From contig NZ_CAJYPS010000027.1 in NCBI RefSeq assembly GCF_913777145.1, positions 1 through 64,000 on the forward strand: a DNA stretch of 64,000 nt, read 5' to 3'. The notes under the pieces were generated by a model, which saw nothing but the letters and a program-made list of their open reading frames with translations, was not told the DNA's origin and searched no databases. Position 1 is the stretch's first letter. The number at the start of each line of letters is the position of its first letter. A program made the translations under genes and the position numbers. Positions 31,034 to 35,058 of the stretch are shown piece by piece. The DNA comes from an uncultured Roseateles sp. (GTDB taxonomy: Bacteria > Pseudomonadota > Gammaproteobacteria > Burkholderiales > Burkholderiaceae_C).

Positions 31034-33019
31034 ATGAAACGATGGACACAGGGAGTCTGGTTCGCCTGGGCAGCGCTCACGGCGCTCAACGTCGTGGCAC
31101 AACCAACTGCGAGCCGCCCCAAAGAACCTGTCCCGGTGGAAGCCTTCTTCAAGCCGACGGAGTTGACCAACGCACAACTGTCGCCGTCCGGGCGCTACTT
31201 GGCAGCACTACGTGGCGGCGTGGCCGAGCGTATCGGTTTCCTGATCGTGGATCTGGAAGGCAAGGAGGGCAGCCACTTTGTCAGCGCCAGCCCGCGGGAT
31301 GACGTCGCCTGGTTCCGCTGGGTCACAGATGACTGGCTGGTCTTCGGCGTCAACGACCCCAACTTCAAGGGAGGAGGCTGGGTGGCTGACGGCCTCATGT
31401 CCATGAGCCGAGACGGCAAGACTTCCCGGCAGTTGATCGCCCGGGACTGGGGCAAGAAGGCCGATGACGTGCAACGCCGTGCCGTGTTGCCCCCGTCCTA
31501 CCGCTTCCTCAGCCTCTCGGCAGAAGGGAGTCTGGAAGTCATGGTCTCCCAACGCCATTGGGATGGCGCCTATGAGTACGACTACTCCTCACTGCATGCA
31601 CTGAACATCACCAACGGCCAGGTGCGCTCTGTCGAAACACCCAAGGCCGATTCCTGGCTGCTGGACAGCAACGGCATTCCACGCGTGGTCAGTCGGGAAC
31701 GCGAGGGCAAGGTGACCGTGAGCTGGTATGACCCGGACAGCAAGACCTGGGTCGAGCGTTTCACCGCGCCCTATGACGAAATGCCCTGGGTCCCGGTCGC
31801 CGCACGCGACCCACGCAAGCTGCTCGTGCGTACGTCCGATCACAACGGCTACTACCAACTGCGCGAGTACGACGCCGCTCAGAACAAGCTGGCTGACAGG
31901 CCGATGCTGACGACGCCGGGCTTCTCCAGTGGTATCGAACCGATCTACGAACGCAGCACCAATCACCTGCTGGGCCTGTTCGTCACGGTGGACGCCGTCA
32001 CGACCACCTGGCTGGATCCCACCCTGAGCCAACTGCAGGCCAAGGCCGATGCCAAGCTGCCCGGTCGCGTTAATCTGCTGGGCTGCGCGCCCTGCAGCAA
32101 TCCCAAACGGCTGCTGGTCTATTCCTTCACCGACAACGACCCCGGCATGACCTTGCTTTACATGCCGGAGACCGATCAGTGGCAATTGGTGGGCCGGACT
32201 CGACCGGACATCGCGCCCGAACGCATGGCGCGCCTGGAGCTGTTCCGACCTAAGGCCCGCGATGGCGAGGACCTGCCGGTCTGGATCACCCGTCCTGCCG
32301 GTGTTCCGAGTAACCAGGCAACGCCGGCCGTGGTGCTGGTGCATGGCGGGCCCTGGGTACGAGGCACTTTCTGGCGATGGAATGCCGAGGCGCAGTTCCT
32401 GGCCTCGCGCGGCTACCTGGTGATTGAGCCGGAGTTCCGCGGCAGCAAGGGCTACGGCTGGAACCACTACCGCAAGGGCTTCAAGCAGTGGGGCCTGAGC
32501 ATGCAGGACGACGTCTCGGATGCACTCAAGTTCGCAGTGGACAAGGGCTGGGTCGATTCCAAGCGAGTGTGCATCATGGGCGCTAGCTACGGCGGCTACG
32601 CCACGCTGATGGGGCTGGTCAAGGATCCCGACCAGTACCGCTGCGGGGTTGCCTTCGCAGCGGTGTCGGACCAGCGCTACATGTTCGACTTCCACTGGAA
32701 CGACTTTTCCGACGAGACTCGCGCGGTCTATCTGCCCGACCTGCTGGGTGATCGCAAAAAGGACGAGGCCCGCTTTATCGCCACATCACCGGTGGAGCAG
32801 GCTGCCCGCATCAAGGCACCGCTACTGCTGGTGCACGGCGGGGAAGACCGCCGAGTTCCCATCCAGAACGGCGAGCGCATGCGCGACGCGCTGCTCAAGG
32901 CGGGGCGGCCGGTCCAATGGGTCTACTACCCGCGTGCCGAGCACGGTTTCCCGCTGCTGGAAGACGAACTGGACTACTACCGTCGCATCGAGCACTTCCT
33001 GGCCGAGCAGTTGCGCTGA
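31034..33019 (+). CDS. S9 family peptidase (acylaminoacyl-peptidase-like), exported
   Basis: Serine peptidase of 661 residues. MKRWTQGVWFAWAALTALNVVAQ is a signal peptide (cleavage near VVAQ), so the enzyme is periplasmic or released. The middle is a divergent beta-propeller (about 45-390). The C-terminal alpha/beta hydrolase domain holds VLVHGGPWVRG, nucleophile Ser518 (MGASYGGYATLMG), the Asp of HGGEDRRVPIQNG and His637 (RAEHGFPLLED). Family members cleave short peptides. Its third positions are visibly less GC-rich than neighbours and it sits beside the AT-rich XRE operator region, which may mean later arrival. ATG 31034 follows AGGGAGAG. Confidence 0.9.
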   Translation: MKRWTQGVWFAWAALTALNVVAQPTASRPKEPVPVEAFFKPTELTNAQLSPSGRYLAALRGGVAERIGFLIVDLEGKEGSHFVSASPRDDVAWFRWVTDDWLVFGVNDPNFKGGGWVADGLMSMSRDGKTSRQLIARDWGKKADDVQRRAVLPPSYRFLSLSAEGSLEVMVSQRHWDGAYEYDYSSLHALNITNGQVRSVETPKADSWLLDSNGIPRVVSREREGKVTVSWYDPDSKTWVERFTAPYDEMPWVPVAARDPRKLLVRTSDHNGYYQLREYDAAQNKLADRPMLTTPGFSSGIEPIYERSTNHLLGLFVTVDAVTTTWLDPTLSQLQAKADAKLPGRVNLLGCAPCSNPKRLLVYSFTDNDPGMTLLYMPETDQWQLVGRTRPDIAPERMARLELFRPKARDGEDLPVWITRPAGVPSNQATPAVVLVHGGPWVRGTFWRWNAEAQFLASRGYLVIEPEFRGSKGYGWNHYRKGFKQWGLSMQDDVSDALKFAVDKGWVDSKRVCIMGASYGGYATLMGLVKDPDQYRCGVAFAAVSDQRYMFDFHWNDFSDETRAVYLPDLLGDRKKDEARFIATSPVEQAARIKAPLLLVHGGEDRRVPIQNGERMRDALLKAGRPVQWVYYPRAEHGFPLLEDELDYYRRIEHFLAEQLR

Positions 33020-33022
33020 GTT

Positions 33023-34024
33023 TCAGTGGCCGGCCCAAGCCCGTTGCGCAGCAAAGCGCCAGGCCGGATCAGGCCAGCGCTGATCCAGTTGCCAGGCGGC
33101 GTGCGTGAGCTTGATGACATGGGCATCGTCCTGTGCACAGGCCGCCTCGATCAACACGGGCCACGGCCGCACAGGCGCAGATGCCAGCGTCCAGACCGGC
33201 TCGGCACCGCTGGCCAGCAGGCCGGCCGCGGCGGCCGCCACAAAGCCCGGGGGCAGTTCGGGCGTGGGCCACCAGGGCTGCAGCACCGCCATCGCATGGC
33301 TGGCCGTCAACAGGTGCAGCACCGTGAAGTTGGCGCTCGCCGCATAGCTGCGCGCGGCCAGCAAGGCCAGCTCACGAAGCGCCTCGGGGCCGCGCTGCAG
33401 CCGGCCGGCGACGCTCGAAAAACCCGGCACGGCGCTCCAGGCCCACATGCGGTCCGCGATGAGGCCGGCCGGCGGCGTCGAGGGCACGGGCAGCGCACGC
33501 AAGGTCTGCACCCAGTCCGGCAGTTCTAGGGCCGGCCCCTGGCCCTGGAGTGGCTGCGGCATGAAGTGCGCCGCCCAATGCGCCAGGCCCGCGGCCAGCT
33601 CGCCCTCGTGCCCGGCCTGCACCGCGTGGGCACTGCGGATCAGGCCGTGGAAGGCGATGGCGCCTGCGCCCGGCAGCAGCAGCAGCAGCGCCTCGCGCAA
33701 GGCCTCAGCCGCACCCAGCTCGGCAATGCGGGTCGCGAAATGGGCGCGCCAGGCGGCGTCGCGCTCCGGCCGCCCCAGGTCCTGCGGGCCAGCGGGCGGG
33801 GTGTCCAGCGCGGGCGTCTGCGGCGGCAGCACCGCGCGCTGCGCGTCGGTGAATTGCTGCAGCCGCTGGGCCGAGGCACCCAGCGCCAGCAGCGCCTGCT
33901 GGGCCATGGGCAGGTGGTTGCTCAAGCGCCCCCGGTAGGTGGACGACAGCGCCATCCCGGCGTCCAGCAGCTGATGCAGCTGGGCCAGGCTGGCCGGGGT
34001 GGCGGCGGGGGACTGGATGGACAT
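33023..34024 (-). CDS. Questin oxidase-like protein (DUF4243)
   Basis: Protein of 333 residues resembling the questin-oxidase-like family (DUF4243), whose fungal member opens an anthraquinone ring by Baeyer-Villiger-type oxidation. Signs are STYRGRLSNHLPMAQQALLALGA at the N terminus (shown by its core TYRGRLSNHLPMA), AIAFHGLIRSAHAVQAGHEG, and ANFTVLHLLTASHAM. No flavin-binding motif is visible, as in the rest of the family. Three ATGs are possible: 34039, 34036 and 34024 (used, with GAGAAAG just upstream). It is divergent from soxR and preceded by a SoxR-type promoter, so it is probably induced by redox-cycling compounds. Stops three bp from the convergent S9 peptidase gene. Confidence 0.78.
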   Translation of the reverse strand: MSIQSPAATPASLAQLHQLLDAGMALSSTYRGRLSNHLPMAQQALLALGASAQRLQQFTDAQRAVLPPQTPALDTPPAGPQDLGRPERDAAWRAHFATRIAELGAAEALREALLLLLPGAGAIAFHGLIRSAHAVQAGHEGELAAGLAHWAAHFMPQPLQGQGPALELPDWVQTLRALPVPSTPPAGLIADRMWAWSAVPGFSSVAGRLQRGPEALRELALLAARSYAASANFTVLHLLTASHAMAVLQPWWPTPELPPGFVAAAAAGLLASGAEPVWTLASAPVRPWPVLIEAACAQDDAHVIKLTHAAWQLDQRWPDPAWRFAAQRAWAGH

Positions 34025-34053
34025 GGGCTTTCTCATCATGGGAACATGCCGCC

Positions 34054-34084
34054 ATGCTGAAAGCTCAAGTGAACTTGAAGTCAA
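34054..34084 (-). promoter_or_regulatory. SoxR box inside a MerR-type promoter for the questin oxidase-like gene
   Basis: The 18-bp site GCTCAAGTGAACTTGAAG (34063-34080) matches the E. coli soxS SoxR box CCTCAAGTTAACTTGAGG at 15 of 18 positions. On the minus strand it is bracketed by TTGACT (34084-34079) and CAGCAT (34059-34054), separated by 19 bp, the over-long spacer typical of MerR-family activated promoters. The predicted start of transcription is near 34047, just ahead of the minus-strand gene. The -10 overlaps the annotated soxR ATG. Confidence 0.7.
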
Positions 34085-34527
34085 GCACCGCCACACCGCT
34101 GTCCATCGGCGAGCTGGCAAGGCGCGCCGGCGTGGCGGCCAGCGCGCTGCGCTTCTACGAGGCCGAGGGCCTGATCGCAAGCTGCGGCCGCAGCGGCGGC
34201 GGACATCGCCAGTACGCGCGCCACGCGCTGCGACGGGTGGCCTTCATACGCGCGGCGCAGGCGGTGGGCCTGAGCCTGCCGGAGATCAAGGCGGCGCTGG
34301 CCAGCCTGCCCGAGGGGCGCACGCCCACCAAGGCGGACTGGACCCGGCTGTCTGCCAGCTGGGCACCGCGGCTGGACGAGCGCATCGCGGCGCTGCAGCG
34401 CCTGCGCGACCGGCTCACCGGCTGCATAGGCTGCGGTTGCCTGTCGCTGAAGGCCTGTGCGCTCTACAACCCCGAGGATGCGCAGGGGCTGTCGGGCCAG
34501 GGGGCCCGACGCCTGCTGCAGGACTGA
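34054..34527 (+). CDS. soxR: Redox-sensitive MerR-family activator SoxR
   Basis: SoxR of 157 residues. The MerR helix-turn-helix is PLSIGELARRAGVAASALRF, with YEAEGLI and RSGGGHRQYARHALRRVAFI, followed by the dimerisation helix. The [2Fe-2S] ligands are all present with SoxR spacing: Cys124, Cys127, Cys129, Cys135 (CIGCGCLSLKAC). Oxidation of the cluster by redox-cycling drugs turns it into an activator. The SoxR box overlaps codons 4-9, so an alternative GTG (34069) or TTG (34075) start, or autoregulation from within the gene, should be kept in mind. Partners: questin oxidase-like gene (divergent) and sodC (convergent). Confidence 0.93.
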   Translation: MLKAQVNLKSSTATPLSIGELARRAGVAASALRFYEAEGLIASCGRSGGGHRQYARHALRRVAFIRAAQAVGLSLPEIKAALASLPEGRTPTKADWTRLSASWAPRLDERIAALQRLRDRLTGCIGCGCLSLKACALYNPEDAQGLSGQGARRLLQD

Positions 34528-34533
34528 CGCGAC

Positions 34534-35058
34534 TCAGCCGATCACGCCGCAGACGATGCGGGCGCCGCCGCCGCCCAGCGGCGCCGGGTGGTCTGCATGG
34601 TTGTCGCCACCGGCATGCACCATCAGCGAGTGGCCGGCCAGGTCGGCGAGCTTGAGGCGTGGCGCCAGCACCGGCTGCGTCGCCCGGCCGTCGGCGGCCA
34701 CGTACAGCGGCGGCAGGTCGCCCAGGTGGCCATCGCCCCAGGGCGTGCCGTGGCGGCCGGTCTTCTGCGGGTCGAGGTGGCCTCCGGCAGCCGCTGCCGG
34801 CACGGCCTTGCCGTCGACCTCACGCGGACCGCAGCTGGGGTTCTCGTGCAGATGGAAGCCGTGCAGGCCCGGCGGCAGGCCGCTGAGCTCCGGCGTGAAC
34901 ACCAGACCATAGGGGCTCTCGGTGACGACGACCTGACCGGCCGGAGCGCCGACGCCGTTCTGGTCCACGACGTTGAGGCGGATCTGTACCGGGTCGGCGG
35001 CCTGGGCATGAGCGGCGGCGGCCAGTAGCAGGGCGGCCACGCAGGGGCTGAGCTTCAT
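34534..35058 (-). CDS. sodC: Cu/Zn superoxide dismutase, periplasmic
   Basis: Superoxide dismutase of 174 residues. A signal peptide ([20 protein letters not shown]) sends it to the periplasm. Copper and zinc ligands are seen in [36 protein letters not shown] and [14 protein letters not shown], and the conserved disulfide uses NPSC and RIVCGVIG. Its 3' end faces soxR at a distance of six bp. The upstream 94 bp contain a small stem CAGCTT/AAGCTG but no SoxR box that I can see, so direct control by SoxR is not indicated. Confidence 0.95.

Follow-up and report, generated by a model that had tools for sequence, protein, structure and literature searches.

The soxR–DUF4243 locus and its promoter

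We have analysed a stretch of 64,000 nucleotides from an uncultured Roseateles sp. (positions 1 to 64,000 of contig NZ_CAJYPS010000027.1, called the window below), in which a soxR gene is divergent from a gene for a questin oxidase-like protein of the DUF4243 family. The window belongs to a contig of 462,733 bp in a genome of 4.39 Mb. The DUF4243 gene (33023..34021, minus strand) matches PF14027 with 61 bits, where the Pfam gathering cut-off is 27. Its start is probably ATG 34021 or ATG 34033; the TTG of the longest frame is disfavoured. The soxR gene (34054..34527, plus strand) scores 203 bits with TIGR01950 against a SoxR equivalog cut-off of 117, and ATG 34054 is its first possible start. 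Compared with the PDB, the window SoxR matches the SoxR structure 2zhg (E 3e-39), and it contains the [2Fe-2S] motif CX2CXCX5C in the form CIGCGCLSLKAC; the motif is also present in all 72 rows of the first SoxR tree discussed below. Convergent with soxR lies sodC (34534..35058, minus strand; NF007628, 198 bits against a cut-off of 165), with a gap of 6 bp between the gene ends.

The promoter of the DUF4243 gene has the layout expected of a SoxR target. A SoxR box including the −35 element, TTGACTTCAAGTTCACTTGAGCTT (34061..34084, minus strand), has 0 mismatches to our search pattern. The −35 hexamer TTGACT (34079..34084, minus strand) is followed by a 19-bp spacer starting with TCAAGTTCACTTGA and then by the −10-like hexamer CAGCAT (34054..34059, minus strand), and the whole is oriented toward DUF4243. 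The spacer falls into the overlong range of 19–20 bp that marks operators of SoxR targets. A preliminary description of the window had named these three genes, the ligands of the SoxR cluster and a SoxR box, and in all of this it was correct: the profile scores identify DUF4243, a true SoxR and SodC, the cysteine motif is found, and the box is real and lies between −35 and −10-like hexamers. As a side observation on positions 34054–34084, the −10 element for DUF4243 shares bases with the first possible soxR start codon, and if ATG 34054 is the start, the operator would be located within the first codons of soxR itself.

Conservation of the pair, the operator and the second SoxR site

Within the genus, DUF4243 is present in 19 of 20 genomes (the window's own included), and soxR is divergent from it in the window and at all 18 other DUF4243 genes. 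In a family sample of 399 genomes DUF4243 was found in 56, which is a lower bound because a diverged DUF4243 of genome G126 escaped the genome search, and SoxR above cut-off in 89 (92 genes). Both genes occur in 43 genomes, DUF4243 only in 13, SoxR only in 46 and neither in 297, giving an odds ratio of 21 (Fisher p 1e-21, with genomes counted as independent and kinship uncorrected). Of the 56 family DUF4243 genes, 32, from 18 genera, share a contig with a soxR and are divergently oriented to it; 30 of these pairs are direct (at most 342 bp between the domain matches) and two (G361 and G342) have one intervening gene. The diverged gene of G126 (L225:633-1529), unreported by the whole-genome family search, also adjoins soxR and makes a 33rd pair. 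The preliminary description had recommended looking for the pair in other genomes and regarded a lack of conservation as reason to give up its proposal; since the pair recurs across the family, this reason does not exist.

Outside the family the gene becomes less common. The order sample contains 14 other genomes with a DUF4243 match (one below cut-off), most of the loci having just 1.5 kb of flank. Outside the family, 3 of the 14 DUF4243 genes form a pair with soxR, each with the box (in one case with TGGAC), and in G042 the box precedes DUF4243 with soxR located elsewhere in the genome. DUF4243 is scarce in the phylum sample, where 5 of 398 genomes have a match (own included, one below cut-off), and a search of the plasmid collection gave no match.

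For each of the 56 family DUF4243 genes we looked for the box in a region running from 400 bp before the start codon to 60 bp past it, the start codons of homologues being picked by rule. A box with no more than one mismatch lies directly upstream of 31 of the 32 paired genes. In the 32nd pair (G342) it precedes a VOC-type gene, which runs in the same direction as the DUF4243 gene and has 4 bases in common with it (L093:2917-4388). Consequently, all 32 pairs have a SoxR-type promoter (TTGAC, 19-bp spacer) directed at DUF4243 or its operon. Among the 31 linked boxes TTGAC is invariant, the −10-like element has A in the second place in 30 and T in the last place in 31, and the −35 begins a median of 63 bp upstream of the chosen start codon. 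When DUF4243 is not paired, a site within 3 mismatches is found at 5 of 11 genes in SoxR-positive genomes (G117, G119, G223, G298 and G191) and at 0 of 13 in SoxR-negative genomes; the background is one in 230,481 positions within 3 mismatches.

The pairing could in principle be accidental, a product of gene order or of descent that involves no regulation, and synteny alone would preserve a pair inside one genus. However, the pair is spread over 18 genera, the paired DUF4243 proteins beyond the genus are 34–45% identical to the window protein (alignment A2), and the operator is kept in trans in five genomes and in none of the 13 without SoxR. We therefore consider an accident very improbable. 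The conserved divergent pair, the activator-type promoter, the operator retained where soxR is elsewhere and its absence from SoxR-negative genomes make it highly probable that SoxR controls the DUF4243 gene, as the preliminary description had proposed; transcriptional switching is here a prediction from genomes.

There is a second SoxR site in the window genome. The genome has two sites within 3 mismatches of the box pattern and none for the reversed pattern, and the second one, with 2 mismatches, is immediately upstream of a gene for a transporter of the major facilitator superfamily (MFS). This target was absent from the earlier proposal. In every one of the 20 genus genomes, a site lies in the soxR-divergent position and another ahead of an MFS gene. 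Altogether these genomes contain 44 sites (up to 3 mismatches), of which 20 are soxR-divergent, 20 precede an MFS gene resembling that of the window genome and 4 are elsewhere; the reversed pattern gives 7 sites. In G361 the genes follow one another in the order soxR, MFS gene, DUF4243, and each target has a box upstream.

SoxR sites before a transporter gene and before a gene for a small-molecule enzyme are what defines a non-enteric SoxR regulon, and the window genome has both. According to passages of PMC4146615, non-enteric SoxR directly controls few genes, for small-molecule-modifying enzymes and transporters, without SoxS. In P. aeruginosa these are the monooxygenase PA2274 and the transporters PA3718 and PA4205-PA4208, and in S. 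coelicolor the regulon consists of six genes (same source). The shape is the same as here, an enzyme and a transporter under SoxR; the enzymes there are a monooxygenase, reductase or epimerase, whereas here it is DUF4243, which those passages do not name among SoxR targets. We regard the system as a variant of the non-enteric SoxR regulon with DUF4243 as its enzyme. Likewise, MfsA of Stenotrophomonas is a SoxR-controlled MFS efflux pump against redox cyclers, similar to the MFS target here but, in the consulted part of the paper, described with no DUF4243 partner (PMC4411124). Our literature search found no paper joining SoxR with questin oxidase, the Dietrich 2008 survey of SoxR targets lying outside that search. 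Judged by title, the papers listed for DUF4243 are fungal or actinobacterial. The word "questin" is absent from PMC8859910, and DUF4243 goes unmentioned in the SoxR passages of PMC2864759 and PMC12117332. For Cupriavidus metallidurans CH34, PMC2864759 reports, in those passages, no typical SoxR site.

The DUF4243 protein and the proposed function

To our knowledge, almost no bacterial DUF4243 protein has an assigned function. A phmmer search of the PDB with a single DUF4243 protein returned nothing related, and a profile of 35 DUF4243 proteins was needed to reach BTG13. Up to E 1, this profile matched only BTG13 (7y3w/x/y, a questin oxidase; E 4e-15), PaD (8z4q/r/s, a hydroquinone dioxygenase; 4e-11) and AflY (8yxs; 2e-7). 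The predicted structure of the window protein has a pLDDT of 83. Foldseek with this model found only PaD and BTG13 at E < 0.001 (E 4e-6 to 3e-5), the next match having E 0.64, and the TM score to both is 0.65–0.68 by query length. Residues H36, H125, H236, H301 and K304 (counted from ATG 34021) are present in 71–73 of 73 homologues, the remainder being gaps. They align with H55, H158, H296, H374 and K377 of BTG13, whose numbering was anchored by the H58F and T299V mutants. The iron ligands of BTG13 are, we assume, four His residues and the carboxylated K377. Taken together, profile similarity, fold match and the conserved aligned residues give good reason to predict that the window protein is a nonheme-iron oxygenase of the class of the fungal (hydro)quinone dioxygenases BTG13 and PaD. 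The kinship to fungal questin oxidase suggested earlier is thus upheld, by the profile for all three structures and by the fold for two. The window protein differs from them in being bacterial, about 110–140 residues shorter than the PDB chains and, as predicted above, SoxR-controlled; in addition, M39 stands where BTG13 has H58.

The data show the genes, the layout of the promoter and how far it is conserved, the second site, the predicted fold and the conservation of the presumed ligand residues, and to our preferred reading of them we give a probability of about 0.55. It says that this is a small SoxR regulon in which a ring-cleaving nonheme-iron oxygenase, DUF4243, and an MFS efflux pump would disarm redox-cycling aromatics. 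From inducer and hydroquinone substrate to ring opening, export and protection, we infer the following course. A redox-cycling aromatic, most likely of quinone type, would oxidise the [2Fe-2S] cluster of SoxR. Within the overlong 19-bp spacer SoxR would then remodel the promoter and switch on DUF4243, and at the second genomic site it would switch on the pump. DUF4243 would break the ring with O2, probably on the reduced hydroquinone by analogy with BTG13 and PaD, and O2 otherwise turned to superoxide would be spent on destroying the cycler. The MFS pump would export the compound or its product. For the central step, cleavage of the ring of a redox-active aromatic by DUF4243, we see about even odds. 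Plant or fungal quinones would fit as the compounds; this is a guess, prompted by the Root isolates among the named kin records (4 of 16).

Two alternatives keep SoxR control and change the role of the enzyme, and MinC, a bacterial DUF4243 protein, is relevant to both. In section 6 of PMC8724604 it is likewise linked to an oxidative ring reaction and acts on a C-nucleoside precursor in minimycin synthesis; unlike the window protein it is joined to a HAD phosphatase within a biosynthetic cluster. The likeness is by description, and that account of MinC makes no mention of SoxR. The first alternative is that the SoxR-controlled oxygenase modifies its compound by hydroxylation, deamination or rearrangement, leaving the ring unopened. 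MinC participates in oxidative deamination-recombination and not in quinone cleavage (PMC8724604, same section), and the SoxR-divergent genes of the family are of diverse kinds, both of which would agree with it; two of the three solved relatives, however, are named questin oxidase and hydroquinone dioxygenase. We find this explanation unlikely, though it deserves consideration.

The second alternative is that DUF4243 tailors a self-made redox-active metabolite to which SoxR responds, as in S. coelicolor and P. aeruginosa. Fungal relatives of DUF4243 are biosynthetic. So is MinC (PMC8724604, in part), and some of the SoxR targets in those two producers resemble tailoring enzymes (PMC4146615, in part). 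On the other hand, in the genus an XRE-cupin regulator accompanies the pair in 16 of 16 kin loci and a two-component response regulator does so in 13 of 16, with no search aimed at biosynthetic clusters made. We rate a tailoring role somewhat below modification with an intact ring.

Several observations weigh against the preferred reading of a SoxR-controlled, ring-cleaving defence. Of the 11 unpaired DUF4243 genes whose genomes encode SoxR, six have no box, and among the five sites at such genes that of G191 is poor, with a weak −35. With up to 3 mismatches allowed, the reversed control pattern turns up in 5 of the 32 paired regions and in none of the 24 unpaired ones; we ascribe the 5 to the box being near-palindromic. 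The paired counts are partly non-independent, since the scan pattern was derived from sites seen earlier. The MFS sites are weaker, having 1 to 3 mismatches, and no DUF4243 was found in G011, a genome that retains the soxR-divergent box. As for the enzyme, the fold match to BTG13 and PaD comes with 18% identity and a root-mean-square deviation of 6–7 Å. The three downstream genes that were scanned are two LysR-type regulators and a Cys/Met-metabolism enzyme, a reductase partner not having been searched for systematically. Finally, the DUF4243 family is not limited to quinones, because MinC works on a C-nucleoside precursor.

If the preferred reading is true, bacteria destroy redox cyclers, which goes beyond pumping them out or mopping up superoxide. 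The conserved SoxR promoter would tell when the enzyme is needed, namely when redox-active compounds are present, and the fold suggests the chemistry to try (Fe, O2, hydroquinones). This makes an orphan DUF4243 family directly testable and would add an oxygenase class to the targets of SoxR.

Neighbouring genes, slot genes and SoxR lineages

The preliminary description had combined SoxR, DUF4243 and SodC into a module of three genes, with SodC clearing the superoxide. The adjacency in the window speaks for such a module. Against it, none of the 16 kin loci (about 13 kb each) has sodC close to the pair, and there is no SoxR box upstream of sodC, the best match in the 300 bp upstream having 7 mismatches. 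Moreover, SodC would act in the periplasm. We judge from these data that sodC is a neighbour and not a member, and a module of three genes appears very improbable; this part of the earlier proposal is abandoned. The XRE-cupin regulator gene, close behind DUF4243 in 15 of 16 kin loci, was considered as a member and rejected, as no other box within 4 mismatches occurs in the window. An S9 peptidase gene (31034-33019), which in the window sits between DUF4243 and the XRE-cupin gene, was rejected too; just one of the 16 kin loci (L038) has it close to the pair.

The slot divergent from soxR can be occupied by other genes. In G011 (83% complete) the slot and its box are kept, and the gene there encodes a 155-aa protein of the VOC superfamily (L187:376-872); G011 also keeps the MFS site. 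A VOC-type gene is soxR-divergent in six further family loci (L222, L223, L224, L226, L227 and L231), L224 being assigned by 60% identity to L222. One VOC protein was compared with the PDB and gave no match. In G342, described above, both slot enzymes, VOC and DUF4243, lie in one operon behind the SoxR box. G011 has one more SoxR-like site with 1 mismatch (L191:1763-1786), close to a MerR-type gene that is below the SoxR cut-off.

A Pfam tally of 35 soxR-divergent open reading frames, taken at 32 loci (29 in the family, two outside it and G011), gave RidA-type 11, MFS 6, ABM monooxygenase 5, SnoaL 2, FMN reductase 1 and glyoxalase 1. A second tally of 31 open reading frames from the 29 remaining family loci gave glyoxalase 5, HlyD 4, RidA-type 3, MFS 2, DUF4243 1 and others. 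Not all tallied frames are necessarily true divergent genes. RidA-type genes (Ribonuc_L-PSP) are the commonest ones divergent from the family's best-scoring SoxR genes, and they have a TTGACC-type box; the loci, named by identity, are L114, L116, L118, L121-L125, L130, L131 and L133. We know of no described role for a RidA-type gene divergent from SoxR.

In the DUF4243 tree the box-bearing proteins fall into one clade of 44 rows (99/97), of which 41 have the box directly upstream, one has it before the operon and two are without a box. The DUF4243 proteins of G042 and G1024 pair together outside this clade (100/99), so either box and DUF4243 came together on two or more occasions or one DUF4243 has replaced another.

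The first SoxR tree separated all 39 DUF4243-linked SoxR proteins, along with that of G042, from 32 others by a branch of 100/99. This clean split was partly a sampling effect, because the best-scoring SoxR genes made up 30 of the 32 others. A fuller tree with the 29 remaining family SoxR genes lowers the branch to 90/87, and a clean split of SoxR by target was rejected. Two DUF4243-linked rows leave their side of the branch and 15 added rows join it. Six of the 15 (L222, L223, L224, L225, L227 and L231) have a VOC-type or DUF4243 slot gene; the slot genes of the remaining nine include HlyD, PCuAC and no-hit genes. A SoxR lineage with a link to DUF4243 is thus loosely supported by the trees.

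The operators differ as well. Their sixth base is T or A in 30 of 31 linked boxes and C in 25 of 28 loci first compared, and the later bases are AC in 25 of 31 versus GG in 22 of 28. An operator type specific for DUF4243 was rejected, since 14 of 29 later-added loci also have a box starting with TTGACT. We tentatively suggest, giving it a lower chance than the preferred reading, that one SoxR branch, mostly with its own operator (TTGACTTCAAGT-N2-ACTTGAACTT versus TTGACCTCAA-N6-TTGAGGTT), often commands an interchangeable slot for a metal-dependent protein of oxygenase type, DUF4243 or VOC, together with an exporter. Such a set of genes would serve as an inducible defence, cleaving reduced redox-cycling quinones with the O2 that otherwise becomes superoxide.

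The two sides of the first SoxR tree also differ, in this biased sample, at four residues numbered as in the window SoxR: positions 18, 33, 50 and 138 are I, R, G and Y in 37–40 of 40 proteins of the DUF4243-linked side and V, H, N and R in 29–32 of 32 others. Residue 138 is located three residues past the cluster motif.

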